Shown here: positions 30,546 through 64,000 of the stretch, piece by piece | Position numbering within the stretch: position 1 is the first letter of the stretch | Layout of the letters: every line of letters starts with the position of its first letter | Assembly: GCF_002946835.1 (NCBI RefSeq) | Contig: NZ_CP026652.1 | Span: 7,254,001 to 7,318,000, forward strand | Direction of reading: 5' to 3' | Length of the DNA: 64,000 nt | Source of the DNA: Streptomyces dengpaensis | GTDB lineage: Bacteria; Actinomycetota; Actinomycetes; Streptomycetales; Streptomycetaceae | The notes under the pieces: model-generated | The model's input: the letters and a program-made list of their open reading frames with translations, nothing else | Database searches by the model: none | Told to the model about the DNA's origin: nothing | Made by a program: the position numbers and the translations under genes

Positions 30546-30566
30546 ACTGGCTCTGTACCAGAAGCA

Positions 30567-41756: not shown

Positions 41757-43109
41757 ATGAGCAGAGCCGAACAGCCGTCCCGCAGAACCGTCCTGGCCGC
41801 CGCCGTCGCCGCGGCATCCGTGGGAGCCGCGGCCCCGTCGGCGGCCGCCGCCCCGCCCCGCGCTCCGCAAGCGCCGGGGCGTCTCGTGGACAACCGCGCC
41901 TGGACCTCGTACAGCGACTGGCGCGGCGGCAGCGCGAAGGGCACGCGGGCCGTGCCGGGCGCCCGCCCCGGCCTGGTGATCGCCTCCCCGGCCGGCACAG
42001 CCGACTACACGGACCCGCACACCGGCAAGACCGCCACCTGGGAGTACGCGACCTGGACCTCCCCGGTCCACCGGCTCGCCGTCCCGTCCACCGAGGCGAT
42101 CGCCTCCTGGAACGCGCACACCCCGGCGGGCACCTGGCTCCAGGTCGAGCTGACGGGCACGTACTCCGACGGCACGGACACCCCCTGGTACGTGATGGGC
42201 CGCTGGGCGGCCGGCGACCAGGACATCAGGCGGACCTCCGTGGACGACCAGAGCGACGGCAAGAGCAGCATCTGGACGGACACCTTCTCCATCGACGACA
42301 CCGCCTCGGGACTGCGCCTCGTCTCGTACCGGCTGCGGCTGACCTTGTACCGCACCCCGGGCACCAGGATCACGCCCACGGTGTGGCGGCTCGGCGCCAT
42401 GGGCTCCGACATTCCCGACCGTTTCACCGTCCCGCCCTCCACGCCGGGCCTCGCCCAGGAACTGCGCGTCCCGCGCTACTCCCAGGAGATCCACGCGGGT
42501 CAGTACCCCGAGTACGACAACGGCGGCGAGGCCTGGTGCAGCCCCACCTCCTCGCAGATGATCATCGAGTACTGGGGCCGCAAGCCGACGGCGGAGCAGC
42601 TGGCCTGGGTCAACCCGGACTACGCCGACCCCCAGGTGTGCCATGCGGCCCGCTTCACGTTCGACTACCAGTACGCGGGCTGCGGCAACTGGCCGTTCAA
42701 CGCCGCCTACGCGGCGACGTACAAGGACCTCCAGGGCGTGGTGACCCGCCTCGGCTCGCTCATCGACCTGGAGACGCTGATCGCCGCCGGAATCCCGGCC
42801 ATAACGTCCCAGTCGTTCCTCAAGACCGAGCTGACGGGGGCGGGTTACGGCACCTCGGGCCACCTCATGACCGTCATAGGGTTCACCGCGGACGGCGATG
42901 TGATCGCCAACGACCCGGCGTCGCCCAGCGACGAAGTGGTCCGCCGCGTCTACAAGAGGCGCGAGTGGGAGAACATCTGGCTCCGCACGAAGCGGTACAA
43001 CGCTTCCGGGCAGGTCGTCTCCGGTACGGGTGGCGTCTGCTACCTCTACTTCCCGGCGCAGCTTTCCCCAGCTCAGGGGCGTGCACTGGCTAAAGTCGGG
43101 GTGCGCTGA
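41757..43109 (+). CDS. Tat-exported C39-family peptidase-like protein
   Basis: The 450-residue protein starts with a twin-arginine signal (SRRTVLAAAVAAASVGAAAP with AxA cleavage sites near 30). A beta-rich middle region follows, then a peptidase C39-like papain fold: PRYSQE, GGEAWCSPTSSQMII with the likely catalytic Cys, GTSGHLMTVIGF with His and VIANDPAS with Asp. It is probably a secreted cysteine peptidase or amidase of unknown substrate. The 3' end forms the boundary with the phage-like element. Confidence 0.85.
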   Translation: MSRAEQPSRRTVLAAAVAAASVGAAAPSAAAAPPRAPQAPGRLVDNRAWTSYSDWRGGSAKGTRAVPGARPGLVIASPAGTADYTDPHTGKTATWEYATWTSPVHRLAVPSTEAIASWNAHTPAGTWLQVELTGTYSDGTDTPWYVMGRWAAGDQDIRRTSVDDQSDGKSSIWTDTFSIDDTASGLRLVSYRLRLTLYRTPGTRITPTVWRLGAMGSDIPDRFTVPPSTPGLAQELRVPRYSQEIHAGQYPEYDNGGEAWCSPTSSQMIIEYWGRKPTAEQLAWVNPDYADPQVCHAARFTFDYQYAGCGNWPFNAAYAATYKDLQGVVTRLGSLIDLETLIAAGIPAITSQSFLKTELTGAGYGTSGHLMTVIGFTADGDVIANDPASPSDEVVRRVYKRREWENIWLRTKRYNASGQVVSGTGGVCYLYFPAQLSPAQGRALAKVGVR

Positions 43110-43206: not shown

Positions 43207-44505
43207 CTAGGAAGATCCCTCGAACCAGCTCTGCATCGCTGAGCGGCCCCGGCCATCCGCCTCGGGCATCATGTGCGCGTAGATCCGGAGTGTGATCGAC
43301 GGATCCGCGTGGCCCAGCCACTTCGAGACTGCCACGATCGGTTCCCGCGCGTCCAGTTGCACGCTCGCGAACGTGTGACGCAACGAATGGAAGCCGTCCT
43401 CGCGGCTCTCCTGATAGGTCAGCACGGTGCGGAACTTGCCCGGCCGATGCCGGACGGGCTGCTGAGTCTTCACCGGCGGCGAAATGACACCCGCCGCAGC
43501 GAGCGCCGGCTTCCATATCCGCGTGTCGAAGCTGTCCCTGCGGATCGCTCCGCCCCGGGCCGCGGTAAGGATGAGCGAGTGCGCCTGCGGAGCCCGTTCG
43601 TCCTTCTCTCGCTCCGTCTTGGGCGGACGCGGATCCTTCCACGGGAGGGTCACCCGGCGTGCAGGCCGCCGCTCCAGCGAGTCAGCGATGCGCTTGAGCA
43701 GGTAGTCGGGCACCGGCACGTCGCGGGTCTTCTCGCCCTTCGGCAGGGCGAACGCGAGCTTCGCCCCCACCTTCTTCACCTGCCTGCGCACCAGGATGCG
43801 CCCGCCCTCGAAGTCGATGTCGTCCACCGACAGACCGAACACCTCACCAGAGCGCAGGCCCGCGCCTACCCCGAGGTCGACACACAACTGGAAGCGCTCA
43901 TCCATGGCGGCCTGAACGGCGAGCACGCGATCCTTGGGCCAGGCGCGGGCTTTGGCCGGCGGTCGTGTCGGCACGCGCAAAGTGGTCTGCCTACGGCACG
44001 GGTTGCGGGTCAGGCGTTCGTCATCAATAGCGGCCTGGAAGATCGCGGACAGGTAGCGCCAGGATTCATTGGCCGTGCTGGGGCCGACGGTCGCCTTGAG
44101 GATCTTCAGCCACTCGCCGAGCTGCTTCGTCTTGATCGAGTTGAGCTGGTAGTCCCCGAGGTGCGGGACGATGTGGGTCCACACCCGCCCCTTCACCGTG
44201 GCCTCGGTGGTGGGGTTGTCGTAGTCGCGGCGCGGCCACCACTCCTGCTCGACATAGTCCTTCAGCAGCATGTGGCCGCGGCGGGGATCGATGAACTCGC
44301 CCGCCGTCGACTCGTGCTGAGCCTTCGCCAGCCAGGCGTTGGCGCCCTCTGGGCCGTGCAACTTCTCGAAGGAGCGGTCCTTCACGCCGGGGATGCCAGC
44401 GACCCGGTACCGCTTGCCCTGTCCCCATCGGCTGGTTCTGCGCTTCTCGCCGGTGGCGGGGTCCGGCTTCTTCGTCATCCACCGGTCTTCGACATAGCCA
44501 GGCAT
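43207..44505 (-). CDS. int: tyrosine recombinase / phage integrase
   Basis: The 432-residue integrase joins the element to the chromosome. An N-terminal AP2-like arm-binding region is followed by a SAM-like core-binding domain (about 80-180: LLKDYVEQEWWPRRDYDNP, SIKTKQLGEWLKIL) and the catalytic domain. Catalytic residues are Arg218 (GLRSGEV), Lys256, His373 and Arg376 (HSLRHTFA), His399 (LGHAD) and Tyr409 (LRIYAH). All are present, so it looks active. It reads toward the chromosome border. Confidence 0.95.
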   Translation of the reverse strand: MPGYVEDRWMTKKPDPATGEKRRTSRWGQGKRYRVAGIPGVKDRSFEKLHGPEGANAWLAKAQHESTAGEFIDPRRGHMLLKDYVEQEWWPRRDYDNPTTEATVKGRVWTHIVPHLGDYQLNSIKTKQLGEWLKILKATVGPSTANESWRYLSAIFQAAIDDERLTRNPCRRQTTLRVPTRPPAKARAWPKDRVLAVQAAMDERFQLCVDLGVGAGLRSGEVFGLSVDDIDFEGGRILVRRQVKKVGAKLAFALPKGEKTRDVPVPDYLLKRIADSLERRPARRVTLPWKDPRPPKTEREKDERAPQAHSLILTAARGGAIRRDSFDTRIWKPALAAAGVISPPVKTQQPVRHRPGKFRTVLTYQESREDGFHSLRHTFASVQLDAREPIVAVSKWLGHADPSITLRIYAHMMPEADGRGRSAMQSWFEGSS

Positions 44506-45136: not shown

Positions 45137-45568
45137 CTAGTCATTCTCGCGGCGCGCCCGCTCGTCGGCCTCGATCATTGCCCGCCAACGCCGCAGCTCA
45201 GGCTCCGACATGCCAGCCAAGTGGCCCACGATGATGCGGACTTCGTCGCCATAGCCGGCCAGTTCAGTCGCCGTGTATTCCAGCCACTGCTCCGCCGCGG
45301 CGGCCTTGACGCGGCGCTCACTCACACGAAGGGCATTGGCAAGCGCCTTCAGCTGCAACGGGCTCGGTGCGCTCGCCGGCGGGTTGGCGACCAGGCGTTG
45401 CAGGTACGGCTTGGAGAGCTTCGTGCCGCTCTCGGTGTGCACAGCCAGTTCGGACATCTTCTGATAGGAGAGGCCTCGGTCGTTCGCGTCCTGGATGAGC
45501 TGCGAGAGCGCACCGCGGGAGCTCGGCTCGTCCGTACCCGTTGCCGGGTCGGTGGCCGGTGCCGTCAT
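45137..45568 (-). CDS. phage repressor-like HTH protein
   Basis: The 143-residue protein has an N-terminal XRE-type HTH region (ALSQLIQDANDRGLSYQKMS, TKLSKPYLQRLVANPP, KALANALRVSERRVKAAA). A short helical C-terminus (GMSEPELRRWRAMIEADERA) may dimerise. It is divergent from the small HTH gene at 45813, with operator repeats between, as in phage immunity regions. ATG 45568 has GAGGAAGAGGA upstream; the in-frame start at 45589 is less likely. Confidence 0.75.
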   Translation of the reverse strand: MTAPATDPATGTDEPSSRGALSQLIQDANDRGLSYQKMSELAVHTESGTKLSKPYLQRLVANPPASAPSPLQLKALANALRVSERRVKAAAAEQWLEYTATELAGYGDEVRIIVGHLAGMSEPELRRWRAMIEADERARREND

Positions 45569-45664
45569 GTCCTCTTCCTCTCGGGTCACTGTAAGTACCG
45601 ACTGTCTCTATAGGTGTCCAACTGCGGTCGGGAAAATACCAGCTCAATCCCTACAACCATCTGG

Positions 45665-51249: not shown

Positions 51250-51356
51250 GCTCCCGGCCGCCCGGCCGACGAGGTGCGGGCGGCCGGTGAACAGCAAGAA
51301 CCCCACCCGGGTCCAGCGGGCGGGGGTCCACCACCAGCATCCCACGGAGGAATCAC

Positions 51357-51686: not shown

Positions 51687-51740
51687 CCAACAACCCAAGA
51701 CCGGCGGTCGCGTGAGCCCCCCACTCCGCGCCGCCATCCA

Positions 51741-51783
51741 GGGTCGCCGGCCCTAACCACCCCCCGGTCGGGGTCGGCGACCC
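51741..51783 (+). terminator. hairpin in an early-gene gap
   Basis: GGGTCGCCG (51741-51749) pairs exactly with 51775-51783, and the loop holds CCCC and GGGG runs that extend the structure. It lies between two small genes and may terminate or attenuate. Confidence 0.5.
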
Positions 51784-51812
51784 GCCCTTAGTGCACCCAG
51801 AAACGGAACCTC

Positions 51813-52058
51813 ATGTACCTCACCCGCACCATCGGCCGCTGGCAGTTCGAACTGCACCAGCGCGCCATCCACCTCACCCGAACACCGAAACCGGACCCGG
51901 CCTGCGAGGCCTGCTACGGGCGCGGCGGCCACGGCTGGCTCACCCACAGCGGCGACCCCGACTGGGAGGACTGCCACTGCATCAAACAGCTCCGCACCTG
52001 GCGCCTGCCCCTCTGGCCCCGCCGCACCACCACCACCAGCGAGGAGTACCCGTTCTAA
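51813..52058 (+). CDS. small cysteine-containing phage protein
   Basis: The 81-residue protein has CEACYGRGGHGW and DCHC, a DnaJ-like zinc-binding pattern. The N-terminus is basic (TIGRWQFELHQRAIHLTR). It overlaps the exonuclease start by one base. Function unknown. Confidence 0.58.
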   Translation: MYLTRTIGRWQFELHQRAIHLTRTPKPDPACEACYGRGGHGWLTHSGDPDWEDCHCIKQLRTWRLPLWPRRTTTTSEEYPF

Positions 52059-52657
52059 TGACCGCCATCGCCTTCGTTGACACCGAGACCCTCGGACTCG
52101 ACGCCGACGTTCACGCCATGTGGGAGCTCGCCATCATCCGCCGTGAGAACGGCGTCGACACCGAGCACCTGTGGCAGATCAAGCCCAGCAAGATCGACCT
52201 GGAGCACGCCGACCCCGAAGCCCTGCGCATCAACGGCTACATGGACCGCATGGTCCTGCCCGAGGACTACTGGGCCGGCGACATGAGCCACCCGTGCGGC
52301 ATCCCACACCCCATGAAGCGGGACGAACTGCGGACCGTCATCACGGACCTCCTCTCCGACGCGGTCATGGTCGGCTCCAACCCCGCCTTCGACGCCGCGT
52401 TCCTGAAGGTCTTCCTGGACGCCACGCCGTGGCACTACCGGACGATCGACGTCGCCACGCTGGCCGCCGGCTATCTCCGTGGCGTTGACCTGCCGACCGG
52501 CGCCACGTCCACCGAGGCACAGCACCCCTTCTCCAGTCGCAAGCTGTCCCTCGCGGTCGATGTCGACCTGCCTGGTGCCGGAGTCGCGCACACCGCCCTC
52601 GGCGACGCCCGTTGGGCCCGAGCCGTTCACGACGCGGTCATGGGCGGCGTCGCATGA
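52058..52657 (+). CDS. DEDDh 3'-5' exonuclease
   Basis: The 199-residue protein has the three exonuclease motifs of the DnaQ/RNase T fold: FVDTETLGLD (Asp8, Glu10), VGSNPAFDAAFL and HTALGDARWA (His and Asp near 187-192). It probably degrades single-stranded ends during phage DNA replication or recombination. The RecE-like nuclease gene follows with a 4-bp overlap, which suggests a shared recombination unit. Confidence 0.88.
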   Translation: MTAIAFVDTETLGLDADVHAMWELAIIRRENGVDTEHLWQIKPSKIDLEHADPEALRINGYMDRMVLPEDYWAGDMSHPCGIPHPMKRDELRTVITDLLSDAVMVGSNPAFDAAFLKVFLDATPWHYRTIDVATLAAGYLRGVDLPTGATSTEAQHPFSSRKLSLAVDVDLPGAGVAHTALGDARWARAVHDAVMGGVA

Positions 52658-53517
52658 CCGCCGCGGTGGAGGTCGAAGCCCCTCAGATCATCGACGGCCT
52701 GTCCGCCGACGACTACCACGCGGACCGCACGTCGATCTCCTCGACCGGCCTGCGCGCCCTGCTCGCCCCGGGCTGCCCCGCCCAGTTCAAGTACGACCGC
52801 GATAACCCGCAGGCGCCGAAGCGGGAGTTCGACCTCGGGCACGCCGCACACAAGCTCGTCCTCGGCGAAGGCCCCGACTTCGAGATCATCGACTTCCCCG
52901 ACTACAAGAAGGTCGCTGCCCAGCGGCTTCGGGACGAGGCCTACGAGGCGGGCCTGGTCCCGCTGCTCACCAAAGAGCACGACATGGTCCAGGCGATGGC
53001 GGCAGCCGTCCGCCAGCACCCCGTAGCCGGCCCGCTGTTCACCCCGGACGGGGGAGTGGCGGAGCAGTCGCTCTTCTGGACCGATCCCCGGACCGGTGTC
53101 CGCTGCCGCTGCCGCCCCGACTGGATGCCCCACCGCCAGGAGAACGGCCGGCTCGTCGTCGTCGACTACAAGACCGCGAAAGCCGTCGACCCGGCAGCTC
53201 TCGCGAAGGCCGTGTACGACCACGGCTACCACGCGCAGGCCGCCTTCTACCTCGACGGCGTCAAGGCCCTTGGCCTGCACGGCGACCAAGAGCCCGCGTT
53301 CGTCTTCGTGTTCCAGTCCAAGACCGCGCCCTACCTGGTGCACCTGGTCGAACTCGACTTCCCCGCCCTCGCGCTCGGCGCTGCCCGCAACGAGCGCGCC
53401 CTGCGGATCTACGCCGAGTGCGCGCGCACCGGCGTCTGGCACGGCTTCAACGACCGCATCACCTACCTCCCGCTGCCCCCATGGGCCGAGAAGAAAGATC
53501 ACGAGGAATACGCATGA
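52654..53517 (+). CDS. RecE/RecB-type PD-(D/E)XK nuclease
   Basis: The 287-residue protein resembles phage RecE-like exonucleases. SISSTGLRALLAPGCPAQFKY near residues 27-47 is followed by LGHAAHKLVLGEG (His64). The active site is RPDWM (Asp156) and VVVDYKTAK (Asp171, Lys173), followed by YHAQAAFYLDGV in the usual QxxxY position. Such enzymes chew 5' ends and hand the strand to an annealing protein. The next gene is a good candidate for that partner. Confidence 0.82.
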   Translation: MTAAVEVEAPQIIDGLSADDYHADRTSISSTGLRALLAPGCPAQFKYDRDNPQAPKREFDLGHAAHKLVLGEGPDFEIIDFPDYKKVAAQRLRDEAYEAGLVPLLTKEHDMVQAMAAAVRQHPVAGPLFTPDGGVAEQSLFWTDPRTGVRCRCRPDWMPHRQENGRLVVVDYKTAKAVDPAALAKAVYDHGYHAQAAFYLDGVKALGLHGDQEPAFVFVFQSKTAPYLVHLVELDFPALALGAARNERALRIYAECARTGVWHGFNDRITYLPLPPWAEKKDHEEYA

Positions 53518-54344: not shown

Positions 54345-54349
54345 CCGCT

Positions 54350-54386
54350 CCGGGGTCGCTCGCACCCGAATTGCGAGCGGCCCCGG
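54350..54386 (+). terminator. terminator after the recombination genes
   Basis: CCGGGGTCGCTCGCA (54350-54364) pairs with TGCGAGCGGCCCCGG (54372-54386), 15 pairs including one T.G, around a 7-nt loop, 5 bp after the stop. Confidence 0.75.
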
Positions 54387-54408
54387 CTCTCAACAGGAGA
54401 ACACAGCC

Positions 54409-54738
54409 ATGGCCAAGAAGTCCCACTACCGCCCCGCGGTCCAGGAGCTTATCGACCTGCTCCGCTTCCGCTCCTCGTTCGGCCGCCCTTGCTACATCAA
54501 GCGGAACACCCGGCATGCCGCGCTCATCGTCCCCGAGCTCCGCAACGGCGCCGACGGCCCCTACGCCCACCTCAAGACGTTCGACCGGGCCACCGTCCAC
54601 GAAGCCGCCGTCCTCGGCGCCGTGACCCTCGGCCCGGAGTTGGTCGACGTGCCCGCGTTCAGCGGCAACCGCAACCACTGGGCCTTCGACCTCGGCCACA
54701 AGGGCCGCACCATCCAGCTCACGGAGCGTGCGTCATGA
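54409..54738 (+). CDS. hypothetical phage protein
   Basis: The 109-residue basic protein reads VQELIDLLRFRSSFGRPCYI, then KTFDRATVHEAAVLGAVTLG and GHKGRTIQLTERAS. No family is recognised. An AACAGGAGAA site precedes its ATG, and it overlaps the next gene by 4 bp. Confidence 0.58.
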   Translation: MAKKSHYRPAVQELIDLLRFRSSFGRPCYIKRNTRHAALIVPELRNGADGPYAHLKTFDRATVHEAAVLGAVTLGPELVDVPAFSGNRNHWAFDLGHKGRTIQLTERAS

Positions 54739-55082
54739 CCGCCACCGTGCAGCCCGCCCTGGACGGCAGCGTCCCGGAGCTGCGGAAGACGAAGACGCAG
54801 CGGCAGGCCGAGGACTACGAGACGTGGCTCGCCGAAGTGTGGCCGAAGTTCATAGCCGCCGCCGCGTCGGGCCGCACCTTCACCTGCTTCGAGGTCGCCG
54901 ACCGGCACGACCTGCCTGCTCCGCCGAACCCGCAAGCCCACTGGGGCCGGCTGATGACGCTGCTGAAGGACGAGGGCTACGTGCGGACCGCGGGGTGGGC
55001 GTGCAGCGACCGGCCCACCGCCCACCACTCCGGCGTCCGCACCTGGAAGGGCACCGCCGCCGCGAGGAGGGCAGCCGCATGA
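54735..55082 (+). CDS. hypothetical phage protein, possible winged-helix
   Basis: The 115-residue protein has a helix-rich centre with a possible HTH-like fold (TFTCFEVADRHDLPAPPNPQ, HWGRLMTLLKDEGYVRTAGW). The pattern, a small cofactor-free domain ending in a wing, suggests DNA binding but is weak. It overlaps the 33-residue membrane peptide gene by 4 bp. Confidence 0.55.
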   Translation: MTATVQPALDGSVPELRKTKTQRQAEDYETWLAEVWPKFIAAAASGRTFTCFEVADRHDLPAPPNPQAHWGRLMTLLKDEGYVRTAGWACSDRPTAHHSGVRTWKGTAAARRAAA

Positions 55083-55180
55083 CCGACCACGCCGCCGCCC
55101 TGTTCCTCGCCTGCCTCGCCTTCACGGTCGGCCTGGCCGCCGTCGCCTTCGCCCTCATCACCCGCGGGAGGCGGACGTGA
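55079..55180 (+). CDS. 33-residue membrane peptide
   Basis: One hydrophobic helix (AALFLACLAFTVGLAAVAFA) ends in TRGRRT. It overlaps both neighbours by 4 bp, which supports translation despite its small size. Role unknown; superinfection or lysis-related functions are possible. Confidence 0.5.
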   Translation: MTDHAAALFLACLAFTVGLAAVAFALITRGRRT

Positions 55181-55461
55181 CCGACCTGATCTGCGCCGTC
55201 GTGTTCCTGATCGGCCTGGCCGGCGCCGTCTACTGCGTGCGCCGCGGCATCCGCGTCTGGCGCGGCGACGACTACCGCACCCGCAACGACCAGGTCGCAG
55301 CCCAGGCAATCCTCCGCACCGACCCGCCCGCCGAGCAGCAGACCCCCGGCACCGACAGCGCACTGCTCCTCGACTGCATAGCCGTCTTCGGCGACTGCGA
55401 AGAACTCGACCGCCTCCGCAACGCCATCCACCAACACCGGAAGGAGAACCCGCAGCCGTGA
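55177..55461 (+). CDS. membrane-anchored hypothetical phage protein
   Basis: The 94-residue protein has one N-terminal helix (LICAVVFLIGLAGAVYCV) followed by RRG and a soluble acidic region (DCIAVFGDCEELDRLRNAIH). GTG start. Paired with the preceding membrane peptide by overlap. Unrecognised. Confidence 0.58.
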   Translation: MTDLICAVVFLIGLAGAVYCVRRGIRVWRGDDYRTRNDQVAAQAILRTDPPAEQQTPGTDSALLLDCIAVFGDCEELDRLRNAIHQHRKENPQP

Positions 55462-56315
55462 CCACCGCCGCCAAGTCCATACCGCCGCACGGAACCGACG
55501 CCCGCTACAAGGGCAACCGCACCGGCACCCGCCCGCCCTGCCGCTGCACCCGCTGCACGCGCGGCCACCGCCAGGCAGACGTGCAGCGGGAACTCCGCCG
55601 ACTGCGAGGGGAACGCAACCTCGTCCCCTGCACCGAAATCCTTCCGCACATCCAGATGCTCCGCGCCAGCGGCATGAGCCAAACCATGATCGCCCGGGAA
55701 GCGGGGGTCGCCCAGGCCGTCATCAGCTACATCACCACCGGCCGCAACAAGACCTGCCAGACGGAAATAGCCCGCCGCATCCTCGCCGTCCAGCCCCACC
55801 GCTTCGACGGCAACGCCGAACGCCCCGCCATCGGCTCCATCCGCCGCATCCGCGCCCTCTACAGCCTCGGCCACAGCCGCGCCGACATCAGCGCACTCAG
55901 CGGCCTGAGCGTCGCCAGCATCAGCCTCCTCGCCGAAGCCCGCTGGAACGTCATCGACAACCTCGCCGCCACCGCACTGGCCGCCGCCTACGACGAACTC
56001 AAGAACAGCCGCGGCAACAACTGGAAGAACGAGCGGCGGGCCACCGCCGAAGGATGGCGCGACCCCCTGTGGTGGGAGGACTTCGGCGGCATCGACGACC
56101 CGGACTTCGACCCGGCCGCTGTCGACCGTGAACTGCGCCGCACCGAACTCGCGGCCGTCCGCCGCGAAGAGATCACCCACCTTGCCGCCTTCGGCTGCAC
56201 CGCCGAAGAGATCCACCAGCGCCTCAACGAAGAGATCGCACTCAGCACCGTCCGCCAGATCGTCCAGGAATGGCGCACCGGACAGAAACGCGAGCGGAAG
56301 CAGGTGGCCGCGTGA
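55458..56315 (+). CDS. phage HTH protein with N-terminal cysteine cluster
   Basis: The 285-residue protein begins with a basic segment and RPPCRCTRCTRGH, a possible zinc site. Three HTH-like stretches follow: QMLRASGMSQTMIAREAGVA, ALYSLGHSRADISALSGLSV and AFGCTAEEIHQRLNEEIAL. They look like repeated DNA-binding units. It may be an early transcription regulator or replication accessory. GTG start with a 4-bp overlap. Confidence 0.65.
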   Translation: MTTAAKSIPPHGTDARYKGNRTGTRPPCRCTRCTRGHRQADVQRELRRLRGERNLVPCTEILPHIQMLRASGMSQTMIAREAGVAQAVISYITTGRNKTCQTEIARRILAVQPHRFDGNAERPAIGSIRRIRALYSLGHSRADISALSGLSVASISLLAEARWNVIDNLAATALAAAYDELKNSRGNNWKNERRATAEGWRDPLWWEDFGGIDDPDFDPAAVDRELRRTELAAVRREEITHLAAFGCTAEEIHQRLNEEIALSTVRQIVQEWRTGQKRERKQVAA

Positions 56316-56503
56316 GCTTCTACGTCTCCCTCGTCTGCGAAGCCACCAGCCCCGGGGCCGGCCGCTGCTGGACCGAGGACACCCCGCCCGGCGAAGCCCA
56401 ATCCGCGACCGAAGCGCGCCGCCGCCTCAAGCAGCAGGGCTGGCACCGCACCCGCGACGGCCGCGACATCTGCCCCGACTGCTGGAAGGAGGGCCGGCGA
56501 TGA
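56312..56503 (+). CDS. small phage protein
   Basis: The 63-residue protein (SFYVSLVCEATSPGAGRCW, ATEARRRLKQQGWHR) ends with CPDCWKEGRR, so it has three to four cysteines and may bind zinc. It has the length and layout of small Streptomyces phage proteins of unknown role. 4-bp overlaps on both sides. Confidence 0.58.
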   Translation: MSFYVSLVCEATSPGAGRCWTEDTPPGEAQSATEARRRLKQQGWHRTRDGRDICPDCWKEGRR

Positions 56504-56763
56504 GGAATCGCTACGCCACACGCCAAGCCGAGACCGCGGTCATCCACGGCGACGGCACCCGCCACTGCGCCTGGTGTGGGGACCACATCGACCCCATCGA
56601 CTGGTGCGCCGACTGCAAGGCCAGCCAGAAGCCGTGCGCCACGGCCGGTGGCCCACACCGCCGGCTCCGGAAACGAACCGACGCCGCCTTCTGCGACGCC
56701 GGCTGCCGCACCGCCTACCAGCGCGACAACGGCCCCGAGATCACCTCGCACCGCAACCGGTGA
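56500..56763 (+). CDS. zinc-finger-like phage protein
   Basis: The 87-residue protein has CAWCG, CADCKASQKPC and FCDAGCRTAYQ, eight cysteines or histidines in all, resembling paired zinc ribbons. The last gene of this rightward block, it is followed by a terminator and a convergent RHH gene. Confidence 0.6.
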   Translation: MRNRYATRQAETAVIHGDGTRHCAWCGDHIDPIDWCADCKASQKPCATAGGPHRRLRKRTDAAFCDAGCRTAYQRDNGPEITSHRNR

Positions 56764-56785
56764 CCGCCTAGCCCACACACGACGA

Positions 56786-56808
56786 AGCCCCGCCGTACAG
56801 GCGGGGCT
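56786..56808. terminator. bidirectional terminator
   Basis: AGCCCCGCC (56786-56794) and GGCGGGGCT (56800-56808) form a perfect 9-bp stem with a 5-nt loop between convergent genes. Confidence 0.75.
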
Positions 56809-56831
56809 CGAGGAGAGGAGGGGACGTGACG

Positions 56832-57047
56832 TCAGTCGGAATCGGTGGCCGGCTTCTTGCGGCGCACCACGCGGCGCTTCGGGGTCTCGGCACCCTGCTG
56901 CTTGCGCCAGGCGGCGACCTCACGCACGACGTACATGCGGATGTCCGTCGCGCGGGCGATGCCCTTCTCCTCGCACAGCTGGCCGTAGTCCGCCCACGTC
57001 TCATCGTCGATGCGGATAACGCGGCCGGGCTGCCCCTTCGTGGTCAT
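56832..57047 (-). CDS. ribbon-helix-helix-like regulator
   Basis: The 71-residue protein starts TTKGQPGRVIRIDDETWADY, the usual strand and first helix of RHH repressors, then LCEEKGIARATDIRMYVVRE and a basic tail (RRVVRRKKPATDSD). ATG 57047 was chosen because the RHH strand begins right after it. Palindromes in its upstream region are likely operators. It is the only minus-strand gene between 45.6 kb and the window end, so it may control the rightward HNH/replication genes. Confidence 0.7.
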   Translation of the reverse strand: MTTKGQPGRVIRIDDETWADYGQLCEEKGIARATDIRMYVVREVAAWRKQQGAETPKRRVVRRKKPATDSD

Positions 57048-57075
57048 GCCGACAGCGTAGCTGACTGTGCACTGG

Positions 57076-57132
57076 CTGGTCACCAGGCTGTGACACGTTG
57101 GCTGGTCAGTGACCTGCCGGTGACCGGTCACC
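57076..57132. promoter_or_regulatory. RHH operator region
   Basis: GGTGACCGGTCACC (57119-57132) is a perfect 14-bp palindrome. CTGGTCACCAG (57076-57086) is a near-perfect one, and GGCTGGTCA occurs at about 57074 and 57100. All use GGTSACC-like half-sites. TAGGGT lies near 57140 and may be part of the rightward promoter. Confidence 0.55.
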
Positions 57133-57247
57133 CTGCGATAGGGTTCAAACGTGCCGCGGCGGCACCGAAACGCTCAAACAGGCCGCCATAAGGGCTTGGT
57201 TCCGTGCGCCCAAAAGCCCCCAACCAGCACTCTCCGAAAGAAGATCA

Positions 57248-58528
57248 ATGGCCGTCTCCAAGCGCCTTCGCTACGAGATCCTCCGCAGGGATCAGCACAC
57301 CTGCCGCTACTGCGGCGCGTCCGCCCCGGCAGTCCCGCTGCGCGTCGATCACGTCACCCCGGTCGCGCTCGGCGGCACCGACACACCCGACAACCTCGTC
57401 ACGTCCTGCGAGCCGTGCAACAGCGGCAAGAGCAGCGCCACCGTCGACGCGGCCACGGTCGCCGACGTCAGCGACGACGCGCTCCGGTGGGCCGCCGCCA
57501 TGACGCAGGCCGCCGAGGAACTGCGCGAGCAGCAGGCCCCGAAGGTCGCGTACCGGCAGGTATTCCAGGACGCCTGGAACGGATGGACCTGGGAGCGTGA
57601 CGGGAAGAAGGAAACGTTCGACCTCCCCAAGGACTGGAAGGGAAGCCTCGACGCCTTCCGCGAGGCCGGCCTGCCGCAGGACGTCTGGCCCGACATCGTC
57701 GAGAAGTCGATGACCAACAAGACGGTCAGGTCGGAGAACCTCTTCCGCTACTGCTGCGGCATCGGCTGGCGCATGGTCGGCGAACTCCAGGAGCGGGCGC
57801 GCGCGATCGTAGGCGTCACTCCAGATGCGTCGAATCCCATCGATTCAGTCGTTCAGGCAGCCGTCGACACCTGGAAGGGCAACAAGTTCGGCGACATCAG
57901 CGATGACGAACTCGCCCGCTTCGAGGCGAGCGCGGTAGCAGCACGCGAGGCGGAAGAGGAAGACGCTCACCGCATCGTTCAGGCCGGCCAGTACGCAGCC
58001 TGGTACGGCGAAACCGAAGTGGTCGCCGCACTCGCCAAGCTCGACCGCGACGAAGCCTTGCAGGAATGGACCTTCGCATGGCTGTCCGCCGCAGGGGAGT
58101 GGCCTGACGACGAGCCAACTGAGCAGGCGCGCACGCAGATCGACCGTCTCCTCAACGGTCAGGTGAACGTCGCGCGGGTCACGCGGGCTGCGATCTATGC
58201 CGGGTCCCGCCGTTCGGTACGGATCTACTTCGGTCTCTCCGAGGCGGAGCTCAAGATCAGCGGCCAGCACGAGGTCATCTCGAAGTCCGTAGAGGCGTGG
58301 GTCCAGGCGTATCACTCCACGGCCGGCCACTGGCCCTCGAAGGCTGAGGTCTCCGCCTTCTTCGCCAGCATGCGGCGGATCGGGGCCGACGGCGAGATCT
58401 GGATCGACGACATCTACCCGGCGGCTGCCGCAGCTGGCGCCTATCTCGACCCGGACATCTCCACGTGCCTGACCCGACACCTGTCTGTATTCGAGGCCGC
58501 GGCTCGCCCGCTCGCGCCTGCCGCCTGA
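57248..58528 (+). CDS. HNH-domain phage protein with large C-terminal region
   Basis: The N-terminal 60 residues form an HNH nuclease: zinc cysteines Cys19/Cys22 (CRYCG) and Cys54/Cys57 (CEPCN), catalytic Asp34-His35 (VDHVTPVALGG) and Asn49/Asn58. The remaining 360 residues are helical and unrecognised (KETFDLPKDWKGSLDAFREA, ENLFRYCCGIGWRMVGELQE, IDRLLNGQVNVARVTRAAIY). The protein lies directly before the replication gene, so it might act at the origin or be a hybrid with a replication-type C-terminus. AAAGAAG precedes the ATG. Confidence 0.78.
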   Translation: MAVSKRLRYEILRRDQHTCRYCGASAPAVPLRVDHVTPVALGGTDTPDNLVTSCEPCNSGKSSATVDAATVADVSDDALRWAAAMTQAAEELREQQAPKVAYRQVFQDAWNGWTWERDGKKETFDLPKDWKGSLDAFREAGLPQDVWPDIVEKSMTNKTVRSENLFRYCCGIGWRMVGELQERARAIVGVTPDASNPIDSVVQAAVDTWKGNKFGDISDDELARFEASAVAAREAEEEDAHRIVQAGQYAAWYGETEVVAALAKLDRDEALQEWTFAWLSAAGEWPDDEPTEQARTQIDRLLNGQVNVARVTRAAIYAGSRRSVRIYFGLSEAELKISGQHEVISKSVEAWVQAYHSTAGHWPSKAEVSAFFASMRRIGADGEIWIDDIYPAAAAAGAYLDPDISTCLTRHLSVFEAAARPLAPAA

Positions 58529-58561
58529 CGTCCGCCATCCCTGCGATCGGAAAGAGATCCC

Positions 58562-59443
58562 GTGAGCATCAAGGTCACCAACTGGGTGTGGGCCCGGTCT
58601 GAGTCCCGTAACGGGGCTCGGCTGGTCATGCTCGCGCTGGCCGACCGGGCGGATGACAAGGGGCTTGCTTGGCCTTCCATCGAAGACCTTATGGATCGGA
58701 CCAAGTTGTCTCGCCGCGCGGTCCAGAAGGGGATTGCTGCGCTCGTTGACGACGGCGAGTTGACGGTTGAGAACGGTGGCGGCAGGCACCGCTCGAACCG
58801 CTACCGGATCATCCCGAAACCGTGCACATCTGACGCGGTTACTCCCGAGGAACAGCGCACATCTGACGCGGTATTGGACTCAGAAACAGCGCACTTTGAG
58901 CAGGAAACAGCGTCAGATGTGCGCGAAACAGCGCACTCTGCGACGCGAAACAGCGTCCAGAGTGCACCCGAACCACCAGTAGAACCGTCAAGGGAACCGT
59001 CAGGGAACCACCACAACAACCGGCCAGCTCGACAAGATCGACGCCCTACGGCCCGAGGTGTGGAAGAAGCCCCGCTTCCCGAGGAAATCACCCGCCTCCA
59101 GGACGCCATGAGCGGCGCCGGGATCAACCTGCCCTGGAAGTTCCTCGGCGACGACATGATCCGGGTCCTCAACGACGTCAAGCGCCTCGGCATCCCGCTG
59201 ATGGTCGAGCAAGCCCTCAAGGCCGAACAGGGCGCCAACCCGCCGCCCTTCAGCTCCCGCTGGTTCTACGACGGCTGGCACGCCATACGCACACCCGTCG
59301 ACCTCGAAGGCGCCTCCGACGGCAGCAACGTCGTCGCGCTCCGCACCTCGCCGGCCGCCACCCGCCAGCAGCAAGAGACCAACGACCTCTTCGACCGCGC
59401 CATGGCGCGCGCCAAAGCCCGAATGGAGCAGGAATCTTCATGA
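58562..59443 (+). CDS. phage replication initiator-like winged-helix protein
   Basis: The 293-residue protein has an N-terminal winged helix (LADRADDKGLAWPSIEDLMD, LSRRAVQKGIAALVDDGELT, NGGGRHRSNRYRI; about 25-82), as in phage replication proteins of the lambda O/DnaD type. Residues 88-133 are a repetitive polar linker whose DNA is the iteron array. A C-terminal helical domain follows (EITRLQDAMSGAGINLPWKF, WHAIRTPVDLEG). The next gene overlaps by 4 bp and may be a helicase loader. GTG start. Confidence 0.75.
   Translation: MSIKVTNWVWARSESRNGARLVMLALADRADDKGLAWPSIEDLMDRTKLSRRAVQKGIAALVDDGELTVENGGGRHRSNRYRIIPKPCTSDAVTPEEQRTSDAVLDSETAHFEQETASDVRETAHSATRNSVQSAPEPPVEPSREPSGNHHNNRPARQDRRPTARGVEEAPLPEEITRLQDAMSGAGINLPWKFLGDDMIRVLNDVKRLGIPLMVEQALKAEQGANPPPFSSRWFYDGWHAIRTPVDLEGASDGSNVVALRTSPAATRQQQETNDLFDRAMARAKARMEQESS
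58824..58960. other. candidate replication origin: iteron array inside the initiator gene
   Basis: GCACATCTGACGCGGT occurs at 58824-58839 and 58857-58872, with an inverted copy GCGTCAGATGTGC at 58910-58922. GAAACAGCG starts at 58883, 58904, 58925 and 58947, a 21-22-bp period, with a variant at 58849. A less GC-rich stretch (58970-59035) follows. The arrangement resembles the lambda origin inside gene O. Confidence 0.6.
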
Positions 59444-60069
59444 CCCCCGACGAAACCGTTGTGCTCGCCCGCTATGTGCGGGCTCTCTGCCCCGGTCAGA
59501 AGTTCGACGAGTACACCCCGGACGCCTGGCACGACGTCCTCGGCGACTTCGCTCTCGCCGACGCTCGCGCAGCCGCCGCTGCCGTTGCCCGCCGTCAGCC
59601 GTTCGTCAGCCCCGCCGAGATCATCGGCGAGATCAAGCGGCAGCGAGGCGACCGTGCCGACAGCTTCCAGGGGCCCGGTCTTCCGGCCGAGATTCCGGAC
59701 GCTGACCCGGACGACGTCCGTGCGTACCTCGCTGCGCTGCGAGCTCAGAGGACACGGGCCGCGGATGGCTTCGAGCTGAAGCCGCGGAAGATGGCGGAGC
59801 TCCTGGCCGGCGTTGGTCGCGAAGTACCGGCGGAGATCGCCGAGGTGAAGCGCCCGGGACCGCTCGGAATCGAATGCCCGAACTGCTCGGCGGCGATAGG
59901 CCGGCCTTGCCGCACCCCGGGTGGTCACGAGCGAGCGCCTCACGCTGCCCGGGCTGGACGCACGGATCCTGCCGGCGACCAGGCCGAGATGGAGCGTCGC
60001 CGCGCGGCATCCGCCCGGCACCTCGCCCGCCTTGAAGCCGACGGCTCCGACGAGGAGGTCGCCTCGTGA
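59440..60069 (+). CDS. phage protein with zinc finger, possible helicase loader
   Basis: The 209-residue protein has a helical N-terminal part (ETVVLARYVRALCPGQKFDE, AEIIGEIKRQRGDRAD) and a zinc-finger-like C-terminus (CPNCSAAIGRPCRTPGGHER, PHAAR). The same finger pattern occurs in the protein at 61796. Its position right after the O-like gene with a 4-bp overlap matches helicase loaders such as lambda P, but no sequence match is claimed. Confidence 0.58.
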   Translation: MTPDETVVLARYVRALCPGQKFDEYTPDAWHDVLGDFALADARAAAAAVARRQPFVSPAEIIGEIKRQRGDRADSFQGPGLPAEIPDADPDDVRAYLAALRAQRTRAADGFELKPRKMAELLAGVGREVPAEIAEVKRPGPLGIECPNCSAAIGRPCRTPGGHERAPHAARAGRTDPAGDQAEMERRRAASARHLARLEADGSDEEVAS

Positions 60070-60410
60070 CTGCCGAGCAGATCCCGGACGACGACGGCAT
60101 CCAGGTTGACGACGTGAAGGCGGTTCGCCGCGAAGGCCGCAGCGAGCTCAAGGCCTTGATGCGGGCGCAGATCCAGATCGGCCAGGCCCGCCGCGAGCCG
60201 ACCGTGAAGCCCGCCCCGCCGCGCCCTCCCGGCCACAAGCCCGGCGCCTGGCCTGTCGGTACCAGCCCGCCCGGCCCGCCACCCGAGCGGAAGATCCCCG
60301 CCCACGTCTGGGATGCGGCCGTCCGCCACTACCGCAACACCGAGCACCACCCCGACCAGCCCTGCGACTGCGGCAACTGCCCGCCGCCCAACACCGAGGA
60401 GAACCGATGA
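60066..60410 (+). CDS. hypothetical phage protein
   Basis: The 114-residue protein has a charged helix (VRREGRSELKALMRAQIQIG), a long proline-rich middle and CDCGNCPPPN at the end, which may bind metal. GTG start with 4-bp overlaps. Unrecognised. Confidence 0.55.
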   Translation: MTAEQIPDDDGIQVDDVKAVRREGRSELKALMRAQIQIGQARREPTVKPAPPRPPGHKPGAWPVGTSPPGPPPERKIPAHVWDAAVRHYRNTEHHPDQPCDCGNCPPPNTEENR

Positions 60411-60916
60411 ACGTCCGTGGCCCCGTCACTGTTGCCGCGTACATCGCGACCATTCCCGCCGCGAACCTGCTTGTGCAGCATGTCGGGCCCGTGCCCGTCG
60501 GCTTCGGGTACACCGCCCCGGCCGGGGTCTACATGGTCGGCCTGGCGCTGGTGCTGCGTGACCTGGCCCGGGAGGCAGTTGGCAGGGCCGCGGTCCTTGC
60601 CGCCATCGCCGTCGGCGCCGTCGTCTCGTACTTCCTCGCCACGCCCGCGCTGGCCGTTGCTTCGGCTGCCGCGTTCGTGGTCGCCGAGACCATGGACTTC
60701 GCCGTCTACGAACCGCTCCGGGAGCGGGGCCTGCTCGTTGCGATGGGCGTCTCGAACGCAGTCGGTCTCCTCGCCGACAGCGTGATCTTCCTCTGGCTGG
60801 CGTTCGGCTCGCTCGAGTTCCTGCCCGGCCAGATCCTCGCCAAGGCGTACATGACCGCCGCAGCGATAGCCGTGATCGCCGCGGTCCGGCCGCGCCGCGT
60901 CGAGGTGGCCGCCTAG
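60407..60916 (+). CDS. VUT/YhhQ-family queuosine-precursor transporter
   Basis: The 169-residue membrane protein has about five to six helices (VAAYIATIPAANLLVQHVGP, GVYMVGLALVLRDLAREAVG, AVVSYFLATPALAVASAAAF). The conserved VUT segment LRDLAREAVGR after an early helix and the repeated helix pattern match the family that imports 7-deazaguanine bases such as preQ0, preQ1 or queuine. It is shorter than the usual host form (about 220). It overlaps its upstream gene and stands 2 bp before the DpdA-like gene, which supports a precursor-import role. Confidence 0.78.
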   Translation: MNVRGPVTVAAYIATIPAANLLVQHVGPVPVGFGYTAPAGVYMVGLALVLRDLAREAVGRAAVLAAIAVGAVVSYFLATPALAVASAAAFVVAETMDFAVYEPLRERGLLVAMGVSNAVGLLADSVIFLWLAFGSLEFLPGQILAKAYMTAAAIAVIAAVRPRRVEVAA

Positions 60917-60918
60917 TC

Positions 60919-61779
60919 ATGAAATTCATGCTCGGAACCCACATGGCGAACTGGCTTTGGGACGACGACGTGCGCCTTGACGGCGTGACGCTGTTCATCT
61001 CCCGCAACCGGCTTGCCAAGCGCGTCAGCGCCTTCCCGGCCGCCCGCCGGGACTGGGCGCTCGACAGTGGCGGGTTCACCGAGCTGAAGGACCACGGCGG
61101 CTGGCGCACCTCGCCCGAGGAGTACGCCGCCGAGGTTCGGCGCTACCGCGAGCAGCTGGGCCGTCTGCTGTGGGCCGCGCCGCAGGACTGGATGTGCGAA
61201 CCCTGGGTGATCTTCGGCGGTGTTCACAACGGGCAGCGGTTCGCCGGAACCCAGGAAGCCCGCGGCATCAACCCCGGCAAGCCCGACGACCTCGAGGCCG
61301 CGGTGCGTATGCACCAAGAGTTCACCGTCCAGAACTACCTCGAACTCCAGCGCATTGCCCCCGACCTGCCGTGGATACCGGTCCTACAAGGCTGGGCGCT
61401 CGAGGACTACGAGCGGTGCGCACAGATGTACGCCGACGCGGGCGTCGACCTCGCCGCTGCCCCGGTTGTCGGCCTTGGGTCCGTGTGCCGACGGCAGGCC
61501 ACCGAAGAGATCGCCCGCATCGTCGACACCTTCCATGGCCGCGGCCTGCGCCTGCATGGCTTCGGCGTGAAGACCGATGGGCTCGCTGATTACGGCGACC
61601 AGCTCGTATCCGCCGACTCCATGGCCTGGTCGGTCGGAGGCCGCCGCAATCCCCGCCTCCCGGAATGCACCCACCGCGCGAAGAACTGCGCGAACTGCGC
61701 CACCTACGCCCTGCGCTGGCACCAGCGCATCGTCAACGCCCCACCCACCTGGCGACAGCACCACCTGTTCGCTGCCTGA
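60919..61779 (+). CDS. DpdA-like deazapurine DNA transglycosylase (TGT superfamily)
   Basis: The 286-residue protein is a TIM-barrel relative of tRNA-guanine transglycosylase. It has DSGGF (49-53), the base-binding motif with the nucleophile-region Asp, then PVLQGW (154-159, compare GIVQGG), GLGSVCRR (185-192) and HGFGVK (213-218). SADSMAWS (231-238) is typical of DpdA-type proteins. A C-terminal Cys250/His252/Cys257/Cys260 cluster may hold zinc. DpdA exchanges guanine in DNA for a 7-deazaguanine base. With the VUT transporter 2 bp upstream, import and insertion of such a base is likely. Confidence 0.8.
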   Translation: MKFMLGTHMANWLWDDDVRLDGVTLFISRNRLAKRVSAFPAARRDWALDSGGFTELKDHGGWRTSPEEYAAEVRRYREQLGRLLWAAPQDWMCEPWVIFGGVHNGQRFAGTQEARGINPGKPDDLEAAVRMHQEFTVQNYLELQRIAPDLPWIPVLQGWALEDYERCAQMYADAGVDLAAAPVVGLGSVCRRQATEEIARIVDTFHGRGLRLHGFGVKTDGLADYGDQLVSADSMAWSVGGRRNPRLPECTHRAKNCANCATYALRWHQRIVNAPPTWRQHHLFAA

Positions 61780-61795
61780 CCTCGAAGGAGACCCG

Positions 61796-62101
61796 ATGAC
61801 GATCCACACCGGTGCCCCGATGCCCGAGTCCCTGCGCCACCAGATGCGCGCCACGCAGCACCCGGCCCGCGCCGTCGACTGCCCGCACTGCGGCGCCCAC
61901 GCCCACCGCCCGTGCCACCTCCGCACGACCGGCCGCCAGTTGCCGCAGCCGCACCCGCAGCGCGTCTCCGCCTGGGCGCAGACCACCGCCTGCTGCCCCG
62001 AATGCCAGGTCGAGCCGACCGTGCCCTGCCACGACGAAGGCCGCGCACGGGCCACCGTCCACCACCGCCGCCAGCAGGAAGCCGAGGCCACCGCCGCATG
62101 A
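61796..62101 (+). CDS. tandem zinc-finger phage protein
   Basis: The 101-residue protein holds two copies of a finger: CPHCGAHAHRPCHLRTTGRQ with PHPQR, then CCPECQVEPTVPCHDEGRAR with VHHRR. The same C-x2-C-x5-PC-x-T/D-x-G-x-PHxxR pattern ends the protein at 59440. GAAGGAG precedes the ATG. It lies right after the DpdA-like gene. Likely nucleic-acid binding (inference). Confidence 0.62.
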   Translation: MTIHTGAPMPESLRHQMRATQHPARAVDCPHCGAHAHRPCHLRTTGRQLPQPHPQRVSAWAQTTACCPECQVEPTVPCHDEGRARATVHHRRQQEAEATAA

Positions 62102-62313
62102 GCCCTTACGAGCGCCTGATGGCGGAGGCCCTGCCGACCGGCACGTTCGGCCACGCCGAGCCCGTCCGCCCCCGTCCGGCCGAGCGGGTCTCCCTGTGGA
62201 CGCCCGACGAGCAGGCCGCACACGTCGCCGCCCTCGTGGCCGAGCTGGACCGGCTCGAAGGCCGCGGCACCGGCAAGCCGCGCCTGCGGGTCATTGAAGG
62301 CGAGGCCGCCTGA
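62098..62313 (+). CDS. small hypothetical phage protein
   Basis: The 71-residue protein has a disordered first half and a helix (DEQAAHVAALVAELDRLEGR). It overlaps both neighbours by 1-4 bp. Unrecognised. Confidence 0.55.
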   Translation: MSPYERLMAEALPTGTFGHAEPVRPRPAERVSLWTPDEQAAHVAALVAELDRLEGRGTGKPRLRVIEGEAA

Positions 62314-63020
62314 TGACCGCCTGCCCGAACCCGACGAAGTCCCGGTACGCGACCCGTGAGGCTGCCGAGACTGCGGCCCGCCGTGTCGCCCTGCGCATCG
62401 AGGCGCCGCTGAGGCCCTACGAATGCGCCTGCACCTGGTGGCACCTCACCAAGAACCTGCCCGAGCGCCCCGTCGACGTCTCCGCCGCCACCCGCCACGA
62501 CATCGAGTTCCTGAATGTCCTGCCCGACATCGACTTCCGCGAGGTCGTCGTCCGCGACGCCGACGGGCAAGGCGACCCCGGGCAGCGGGCCGCACTCCGC
62601 CACCACCGCAACCAGGTCCGCTGGAAGAAGCAGCTCGGCCAGCTGATCGCCGACGTGGAAGAGCAGCTGAAAGACCGCCGCGGCGACAAGTCGCTCGCAA
62701 GCCACGACTGGGCGAAGCGGGCCACCGGCTACCGGGACTCGCTGATCGTGCGGCTCAACGAGTGCAAGCGGCTCCGTGCCGCCGACCACGCGCAGGCGAT
62801 CGTCAACCAGGAACATCGCCGCCGGGATGCCGAGATAGCAGCCGCGGCCGGGGCCACCGTGAAGGAACTCCGGGCAGCGGCAGGGGAGATCGCAGTCCAG
62901 CGGCTGATCGCGGCCCACGGCCCAGAGTTCGACGACTACCTGGCCGAGGAGTACGCGGTGTTGGGGATCAGCTTGCCGGCCCGTGTCGAACGTCACCGGC
63001 GCGAACGAGGTGCCGCCTGA
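62313..63020 (+). CDS. hypothetical phage protein, charged helical
   Basis: The 235-residue protein starts with KSRYATREAAETAARRVALR and an ECACTWWHLT segment, common at the start of actinophage proteins of unknown role. The rest is charged helix (LRHHRNQVRWKKQLGQLIAD, EHRRRDAEIAAAAGATVKEL). The ATG overlaps the previous stop by one base. Confidence 0.6.
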   Translation: MTACPNPTKSRYATREAAETAARRVALRIEAPLRPYECACTWWHLTKNLPERPVDVSAATRHDIEFLNVLPDIDFREVVVRDADGQGDPGQRAALRHHRNQVRWKKQLGQLIADVEEQLKDRRGDKSLASHDWAKRATGYRDSLIVRLNECKRLRAADHAQAIVNQEHRRRDAEIAAAAGATVKELRAAAGEIAVQRLIAAHGPEFDDYLAEEYAVLGISLPARVERHRRERGAA

Positions 63021-63097
63021 TGTCGCCCGTTGTCCTCCGCCCGCAGCCGCCCGGCCTGATCCGTGACCGCCCGCCTGCCCCCGCCCGACCACTGTGA
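63020..63097 (+). CDS. possible 25-residue peptide
   Basis: An ATG overlapping the previous stop by one base opens a 25-codon frame rich in proline and arginine (LRPQPPGLIRDRPPAPARPL). The coupling is its only support. Confidence 0.25.
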   Translation: MSPVVLRPQPPGLIRDRPPAPARPL

Positions 63098-63136
63098 CCT
63101 GCACGAATCCGTGAACTGACCGACAGGAGAACCGAC

Positions 63137-63691
63137 ATGACCGACCGCACGCCGCTCACTGAGCAGCAGCTCGACAGCTACGCCGAACTCGCGATCACCG
63201 CCGAACACGACGGGATCCAGGTTGATCCGGCCGTCGTCACACGGCTCGTCGACGAGGTTCGCCGCCTGCAGTTTCAGTGCCGCTACCTGATCGGCCAGCT
63301 CGCGAAGCGGGACGCGGCGTCCGGCCGCGGCGACCGGGCGGTGCGGGAGTTCCTCACCGCCGACCCCGGCCCGACCGTGCAGCCGACCGGCTACGTCGTC
63401 TCCTGCCTGCCCGCGGGTCACGACGACCGGTGGACGTTCACCGTTCAGGTGCAGCACGCGGGCGGCGACAAGTTCGTCGTCAGGCACGGCCTCCGCCATT
63501 ACGGCGTGGACGGCGCATGGTCCTACGAGCCCGGCTTCGACGAGGACGACGACTCGGCCGAGGTGGAGTGGGCTGATGCGCACCGCTTCGACCACGACAC
63601 GGCGCTGCGCCTCGCCCGCGAGTTGGCGCCGCGGCTCACGTACCGGGGCCGGACCGTCGCCGACGTACTGGCCGAGGGAGCGCAGCGATGA
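63137..63691 (+). CDS. hypothetical phage protein
   Basis: The 184-residue protein has a helical start (EQQLDSYAELAITAEHDG, VVTRLVDEVRRLQFQCRYLI) and an acidic beta-rich later part (WTFTVQVQHAGGDKFVVRHG, FDEDDDSAEVEWADAHRFD). ACAGGAGA precedes its ATG. No family is recognised. Confidence 0.58.
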   Translation: MTDRTPLTEQQLDSYAELAITAEHDGIQVDPAVVTRLVDEVRRLQFQCRYLIGQLAKRDAASGRGDRAVREFLTADPGPTVQPTGYVVSCLPAGHDDRWTFTVQVQHAGGDKFVVRHGLRHYGVDGAWSYEPGFDEDDDSAEVEWADAHRFDHDTALRLARELAPRLTYRGRTVADVLAEGAQR

Positions 63692-63963
63692 GCGATCTCT
63701 TCGAGGCCAACTCCGACGCGGCGACCGCACTTCTGGCTGCGGGCTGGACCGTCGACGATCACCACTTCCTGCCGACCCTGCGCAACGGCGGCGCCTTCTG
63801 GTCCGTCGGCGGTGACGCCACCTCGACGCTCTGGTCCGGCGACTGGATTGCCGAGTTTGACCGCGGCACCCCGGTGATCGTCGTCGTCGCCGCGTGTCTT
63901 GCGGCTGCGGGTCAGACCGCCGAGCGGCTGGCCGACGTGATCCCGATCCGCCCCACCCCGTGA
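63688..63963 (+). CDS. hypothetical phage protein
   Basis: The 91-residue protein reads ALLAAGWTVDDHHFLPTLRN, GGAFWSVGGDATSTLWSGDW and IVVVAACLAAAGQTAERLAD. It looks like a small alpha/beta domain. It overlaps the preceding gene by 4 bp and is the last complete gene in the window. Confidence 0.57.
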   Translation: MSDLFEANSDAATALLAAGWTVDDHHFLPTLRNGGAFWSVGGDATSTLWSGDWIAEFDRGTPVIVVVAACLAAAGQTAERLADVIPIRPTP

Positions 63964-64000
63964 CACGCAGGACGGTCGGCCCCGCCGTTACCGGGCCCGA

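Follow-up and report, generated by a model that had tools for sequence, protein, structure and literature searches.

Why would a phage integrated in the genome of Streptomyces dengpaensis carry, back to back, the gene for a VUT-family transporter and that for a DpdA-like base-exchange enzyme, and from where would such an enzyme obtain its 7-deazaguanine? The two genes lie in the window, by which we mean the whole stretch of 64,000 nucleotides that was analysed. They and the surrounding features are listed in window coordinates.

42968..43062, no strand: left copy of a 95-bp repeat (attachment site); the right copy, at C1:7380411, lies beyond the window
43207..44505 (L305:7207-8505), minus strand: phage integrase (PHROG 1, integrase, 157 bits)
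45137..45589 (L305:9137-9589), minus strand: repressor-like gene (PHROG 12831, transcriptional repressor, a weak match of 32 bits)
52612..53517, plus strand: exonuclease VIII-like recombination gene (PHROG 412, 326 bits)
58562..59443, plus strand: replication initiation protein, a short way before the pair (PHROG 391, 86 bits)
60066..60410, plus strand: ORF of 114 aa
60407..60916, plus strand: VUT/COG1738 (YhhQ-type) transporter, 169 aa, a predicted importer of free 7-deazaguanine
60919..61779, plus strand: DpdA-family base-exchange enzyme, 286 aa

The original prediction placed a VUT/YhhQ-type gene 2 bp before a DpdA-like gene, and this is exact: the stop codon of the transporter ends at 60916 and the ATG of the enzyme is at 60919. 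The transporter's own ATG lies across the stop of the ORF before it, an overlap of 4 bp, and given this and the 2-bp gap, coupled translation is likely. Both reading frames are intact. PADLOC gave no call for either protein, and searches of solved-structure sequences with the DpdA and VUT families returned nothing useful.

The enzyme matched the Pfam DpdA model PF23859 with 272.1 bits (cutoff 27) and PHROG 1279 with 268 bits. Its structure model (pLDDT 93.9) contains the TGT/DpdA barrel fold, and the first Foldseek match was 7ui4, a solved bacterial DpdA which at 413 aa is longer than the window enzyme. Its placement in the DpdA/TGT superfamily was thus upheld, and the claimed TGT motifs, DSGGF (49), PVLQGW (154), GLGS (185) and HGFGVK (213), are all present, as is the C-terminal cysteine cluster (C250, C257 and C260). 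In an alignment of 74 relatives D49, D90, E94, Q157, G158, G185, G187, H213, G216 and D233 are invariant; D49 and D233 are, going by motif order, the presumed TGT-type catalytic aspartates. The cysteines are conserved in 52/74 (C250), 64/74 (C257) and 73/74 (C260) of the relatives. When the sequence was checked for a TGT-type zinc site of three Cys and one His, a constant His was absent (H252 in 25/74, H268 in 8/74). The protein is thus a DpdA-family enzyme, predicted to insert a 7-deazaguanine into DNA. It could instead act on RNA, either tRNA or phage transcripts, since the fold is common to tRNA-guanine transglycosylases at equal Z and numerous relatives are annotated 'queuine tRNA-ribosyltransferase'. 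We regard this as highly improbable: the first Foldseek match is a DNA enzyme, VUT genes of the genus adjoin DpdE of the DNA system, and the host, as described below, has no TGT, so that its tRNA should be free of queuosine.

The predicted DNA-inserting enzyme is preceded by a protein whose hydrophobic segments are spread along its length. It matched the Pfam model Vut_1 (PF02592) with 44.6 bits, above the cutoff of 27.2, which agrees with its earlier placement in the VUT family, and PHROG 4899 with 135 bits. Against the NCBIfam model TIGR00697, 'queuosine precursor transporter', it scored 50.5 bits, under the cutoff of 50.95 by 0.45, and against the E. coli YhhQ-type model NF008406 it scored 23.9 with a cutoff of 252. 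Membership of the VUT family rests on the Pfam match, and the specific transport function is a predicted one; the protein is probably an importer of free 7-deazaguanine, most likely preQ0. YhhQ is required for salvage of preQ0 and preQ1 in E. coli (PMC5372724), and COG1738 members have been seen in TGT-less bacteria with genes for deazapurine modification of DNA (Zallot 2017, PMC5372724).

As originally claimed, the pair lies inside an integrated element. Its ends are marked by a perfect direct repeat of 95 bp, at C1:7296968 and C1:7380411, which encloses about 83 kb, with the integrase and the repressor-like gene at the left end and genes for terminase, portal, scaffold and tape-measure proteins rightward of the pair. 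In IMG/VR, a 78-kb viral contig encodes both proteins at 100% identity; a near-identity search of phage records with window positions 47000-64000 gave no match. Because of the bounding repeat, the flanking phage genes and the IMG/VR contig, the pair is placed among the rightward early genes of a siphovirus-like prophage. The suggestion that the lysogen might also modify host DNA found no support. The pair follows the replication genes and the repressor-like gene near the left end is on the opposite strand, and hence the pair is probably silent in the lysogen.

To locate a source of precursor, profiles were built for QueC, QueD, QueE, FolE1 and FolE2 and run against five 20-kb stretches covering the prophage. 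None had a match at E 0.1, in keeping with the claimed absence of preQ0-synthesis genes from the element, and DpdE and DpdF had no match in the prophage either. The host is Streptomyces-like, judging by a Streptomyces-metK RNA in the window and by what the nearest protein matches are called. Its genome gave a single QueC-profile match of 25.4 bits, above the Pfam cutoff of 22, in a 536-aa ORF. This candidate was rejected, as the ORF appears by eye to be GMP synthase-like and scored 12.7 bits with a QueC-specific profile. No TGT was found in the host genome by a search that was positive in 14 of 14 control genomes. There is one PTPS/QueD-like gene in the host, and within a 13-kb stretch around it QueC, QueE and FolE had no match. 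Of the genes named for the host search that was proposed with the original prediction, no true copy of QueC was found and a QueD-like gene is present; QueE and FolE were sought in the prophage and in the 13-kb stretch. With QueE and FolE covered on this scale, the host should make neither preQ0 nor queuosine, and as it has no true QueC and no TGT, preQ0 would need an outside source. The salvage-only arrangement that had been proposed is consistent with a prophage devoid of matches to synthesis genes in a host lacking a true QueC.

Based on these observations, we consider the pair to be real and probably functional, and we favour with reasonable confidence its interpretation as a salvage-only import-and-insert module for modifying phage DNA, conditional on the precursor. 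The transporter would import a free 7-deazaguanine that other microbes release, preQ0 being the likeliest, and DpdA would exchange guanine in DNA for the imported base in a TGT-type reaction. If the pair is expressed during lytic growth along with the replication genes, replicating phage DNA would be modified only when outside precursor is available, and DNA so modified would probably be guarded against restriction.

The same pairing is widespread among viruses. VUT loci were collected with an alignment of 17 VUTs, all found beside a PF23859-type enzyme (D); partners of other types were thus not built into the scan. Nevertheless, when the 80 best of 151 confirmed viral loci were inspected, an enzyme of one of three families, D, S or R, lay within 500 bp of the VUT in 73: D in 30, S in 23 and R in 20. 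DpdE was the partner at one locus and preQ0 genes at another, and five loci had no assigned partner. At three of these (L207, L209 and L211) the VUT is 22 bases or less from the end of the stored stretch, and at the other two (L238 and L275) other proteins lie upstream of it. The S family, a shorter DpdA-like group, is represented by StevieRay gp54 and Aoka gp40, and R by RHph_N3_2 EVB98_054; neither has a Pfam match above cutoff. R matches PHROG 887, 'queuine tRNA-ribosyltransferase', and phage MED16 has a DpdA related to it (38.7% to RHph_N3_2 EVB98_054). A structure model of R (pLDDT 88.8) is a barrel for which the top VIA-align rows were of the TGT family, with unrelated barrels scoring little less, and Foldseek gave no match at 0.001. 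Among phage records, a D-type relative was found in 400, of which 391 are mycobacteriophages, and a VUT relative in 14, an imbalance that weighs against the import-and-insert reading.

At L275:1575-2252 there is a DUF6610 protein (PF20314, 112 bits) directly upstream of the VUT, which is not of the D, S or R type; on inspection its sequence shows LLGGSP and ISADGN stretches, and it may be a further TGT-like partner. Upstream of the VUT at L238:1225-2136, a 304-aa protein with an IDSGAFQ stretch, possibly another variant of DpdA, had no Pfam or PHROG match.

We also approached the association from the side of the enzymes, in three scans (best 80 of 112, of 438 and of at least 576 viral loci; near-duplicates remain here and in the other sets of 80). 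A VUT was adjacent in 51/80 S, 41/80 R and 14/80 D loci, the gaps in the D loci being 5-472 bp. It was upstream of S in 47 of the 51 adjacent pairs and downstream of R in 31 of the 41. Synthesis genes were found without a VUT in 12 S, 6 R and 4 D loci, and together with an adjacent VUT in one of the 240 (S 1, R 0, D 0). Neither was nearby in 17 S, 33 R and 62 D loci, although 4 of these S loci and 5 of these R loci have less than 700 bp on one side. The avoidance between VUT and synthesis genes gave one-sided Fisher p values of 1.4e-5 for the pooled 240 loci, 8.6e-6 for S and 0.011 for R, and was not significant for D alone (p 0.46); given the relatedness of the loci and the limited length of the stretches, these values are only a guide.

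A tree of D enzymes was constructed from 98 of 110 DpdA loci, after identical, short and poorly flanked rows had been dropped. On this quick tree, in which long branches were flagged, 16 rows have an adjacent VUT, a distribution that takes no fewer than 11 changes to explain, 6 of which are forced by supported branches. A similarly quick VUT tree, again with long branches flagged (122 rows after removal of short and near-identical ones), places the window gene in a supported set of 26, whose neighbours are D in 14, preQ0 genes in 5, DpdE/F in 4 and others in 3. We read this as a putative supply gene having been repeatedly joined to a putative insertion gene. It would then be a tentative generalisation, which we doubt slightly more than we favour, that in phages of several host groups VUT has repeatedly been joined to TGT-like enzymes, of three families or more, in place of preQ0 synthesis, making DNA armour conditional on the 7-deazaguanines of neighbours.

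Two other explanations need to be weighed against import and insertion. The transporter might carry a different cargo, either another purine or preQ0 outwards, its proximity to DpdA reflecting regulation or export. COG1738 is heterogeneous and other substrates are possible (PMC5372724), and the window VUT groups with those of dpd islands and preQ0 operons, where export is conceivable. However, that VUT partners three enzyme families, with gene orders that differ, argues for supply, and so does the small number of loci in which it accompanies synthesis genes; we rate another cargo as very unlikely. Alternatively, the pair might be a relic or only weakly active, DNA being mostly unmodified without precursor and the genes mattering little. 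The 62 of 80 D-type viral loci without nearby VUT or Que genes speak for this and against an import-and-insert module. In addition, 7-deazaguanine was absent from the DpdA-only phage Orion (PMC6884629), and for the DNA of MED16 a dADG level of only about 0.13% is reported, which hardly affected the restriction enzymes tested (PMC8306585). On the other hand, both reading frames of the window pair are intact, the catalytic-type positions are invariant in 74/74 relatives, and the changes needed on the D tree suggest repeated selection for the pairing, which leaves a relic or weakly active pair unlikely. In view of the D loci without a supply gene, Orion and MED16, the steps of the favoured import-and-insert module, namely substrate, import direction, DNA target, timing and protection, are what we infer from the gene pair and its relatives.

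The neighbours of VUT genes were also examined in bacteria. For the window's genus, as grouped in the genome collection, 295 genomes were scanned with the Pfam VUT model, taking flanks of about 1.5 kb on either side. VUT was above cutoff at 17 loci in 16 genomes, one of them that of the window. Sixteen of the 17 adjoin 7-deazaguanine genes: PF23859 DpdA (5), the S family (5), FolE2 (3) and DpdE (3). The remaining one is in two pieces and its neighbour has no assignment. Two more VUTs scored below cutoff, and no 7-deazaguanine gene was found within about 1.5 kb of them. Taken from the other side, PF23859 DpdA was above cutoff in 31 of the 295 genomes, and 3 of the 30 DpdA loci examined had a VUT within 1.5 kb. 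A continuous run in Streptomyces lucensis (L128) consists of QueC, a QueE-like radical-SAM gene, QueD and FolE2, with VUT at its end, and in Streptomyces stelliscabiei (L129) VUT is divergent from DpdE (1396 bits), which DpdF (502 bits) adjoins. Among the best 80 of 399 VUT loci in genome_contigs, preQ0-synthesis genes lay within 5 kb at 40, DpdE/F at 13, DpdA at 9 and the R enzyme at 1; none of the sought genes was found at 17, of which 16 are, by title, outside Streptomyces. The association is thus looser here than in the viral loci.

Some individual loci may be recorded here. At L286 (genome G117) the VUT is in two separated pieces of 174.9 and 57.2 bits, and D, S, R, Que, FolE and DpdE/F had no match in the available stretch. 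Relatives of VUT and DpdA adjoin on the plasmids NZ_CP046906.1, NZ_CP108778.1 and NZ_CP109568.1 (Streptomyces, Embleya and Nocardia). Genome G069 of the genus has four DpdA matches; two have identical scores and lie towards the two ends of its C1 contig.

How does the window prophage compare with known systems? The third group of Hutinet 2019, the 'DpdA-only' phages such as Orion and Salmonella 7-11, resembles it in having DpdA without preQ0-synthesis genes of its own, and host preQ0 or uptake of exogenous precursor were named as possible sources for these phages (PMC6884629). As far as that text describes them, the window prophage differs in that a transporter gene is coupled directly to dpdA, a pairing that recurs; YhhQ was noted in some phages, uncorrelated with any phage group (Hutinet 2019, PMC6884629). 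Like the window prophage, EC151 and CAjan combine a transporter with DpdA in one phage. EC151 has a preQ0 transporter alongside the complete set of synthesis genes (PMC8310023), the CAjan record contains the transporter together with the synthesis set, and CAjan DNA is reported to contain dPreQ0 (PMC6884629); both thus have folE, queD, queE and queC, none of which was found in the window prophage. Their combination of transporter and synthesis set counts against the favoured reading. Bacterial dpd islands, about 9% of which have YhhQ according to a 2025 preprint (PMC11888242), share with the window pair the transporter family and a TGT-fold DpdA, but the window prophage has no match to DpdE or DpdF, the two further island proteins searched for. 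Pantoea phage MED16 has a TGT-fold DpdA and measured dADG, its enzyme being of the R type, unlike the D type of the window; its report describes no transporter-independent source of its own, and the word 'transporter' is absent from its main text (PMC8306585). In the literature searched, we found no recurrent VUT-enzyme pair, no set of three enzyme partners and no avoidance of synthesis genes. Within that literature the recurrent pairing looks new, whereas precursor uptake by phages was already suggested in 2019.

Since the same VUT-enzyme pairing occurs in many other viruses, there may be phages that collect a chemical outside the cell and armour their DNA with it. If true, this would explain the use of DpdA by phages whose hosts have no queuosine pathway, would tie the DNA chemistry of phages to a compound shared in soil, and would offer a simple, precursor-controlled, two-gene route for 7-deazaguanine into DNA. 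It also makes testable why a precursor pathway is missing from so many phages with DpdA, and why the DNA of one such phage proved to be unmodified. If the armour is conditional, phages grown in the laboratory can look unmodified while those in the environment are not.

Elsewhere in the window, the prophage ORF at 49275-50399 has a DPPY stretch and by eye resembles a DNA methyltransferase, possibly a second DNA-modifying gene. The host part of the window holds a Streptomyces-metK RNA at 2352-2469 and an FMN riboswitch at 30565-30695.
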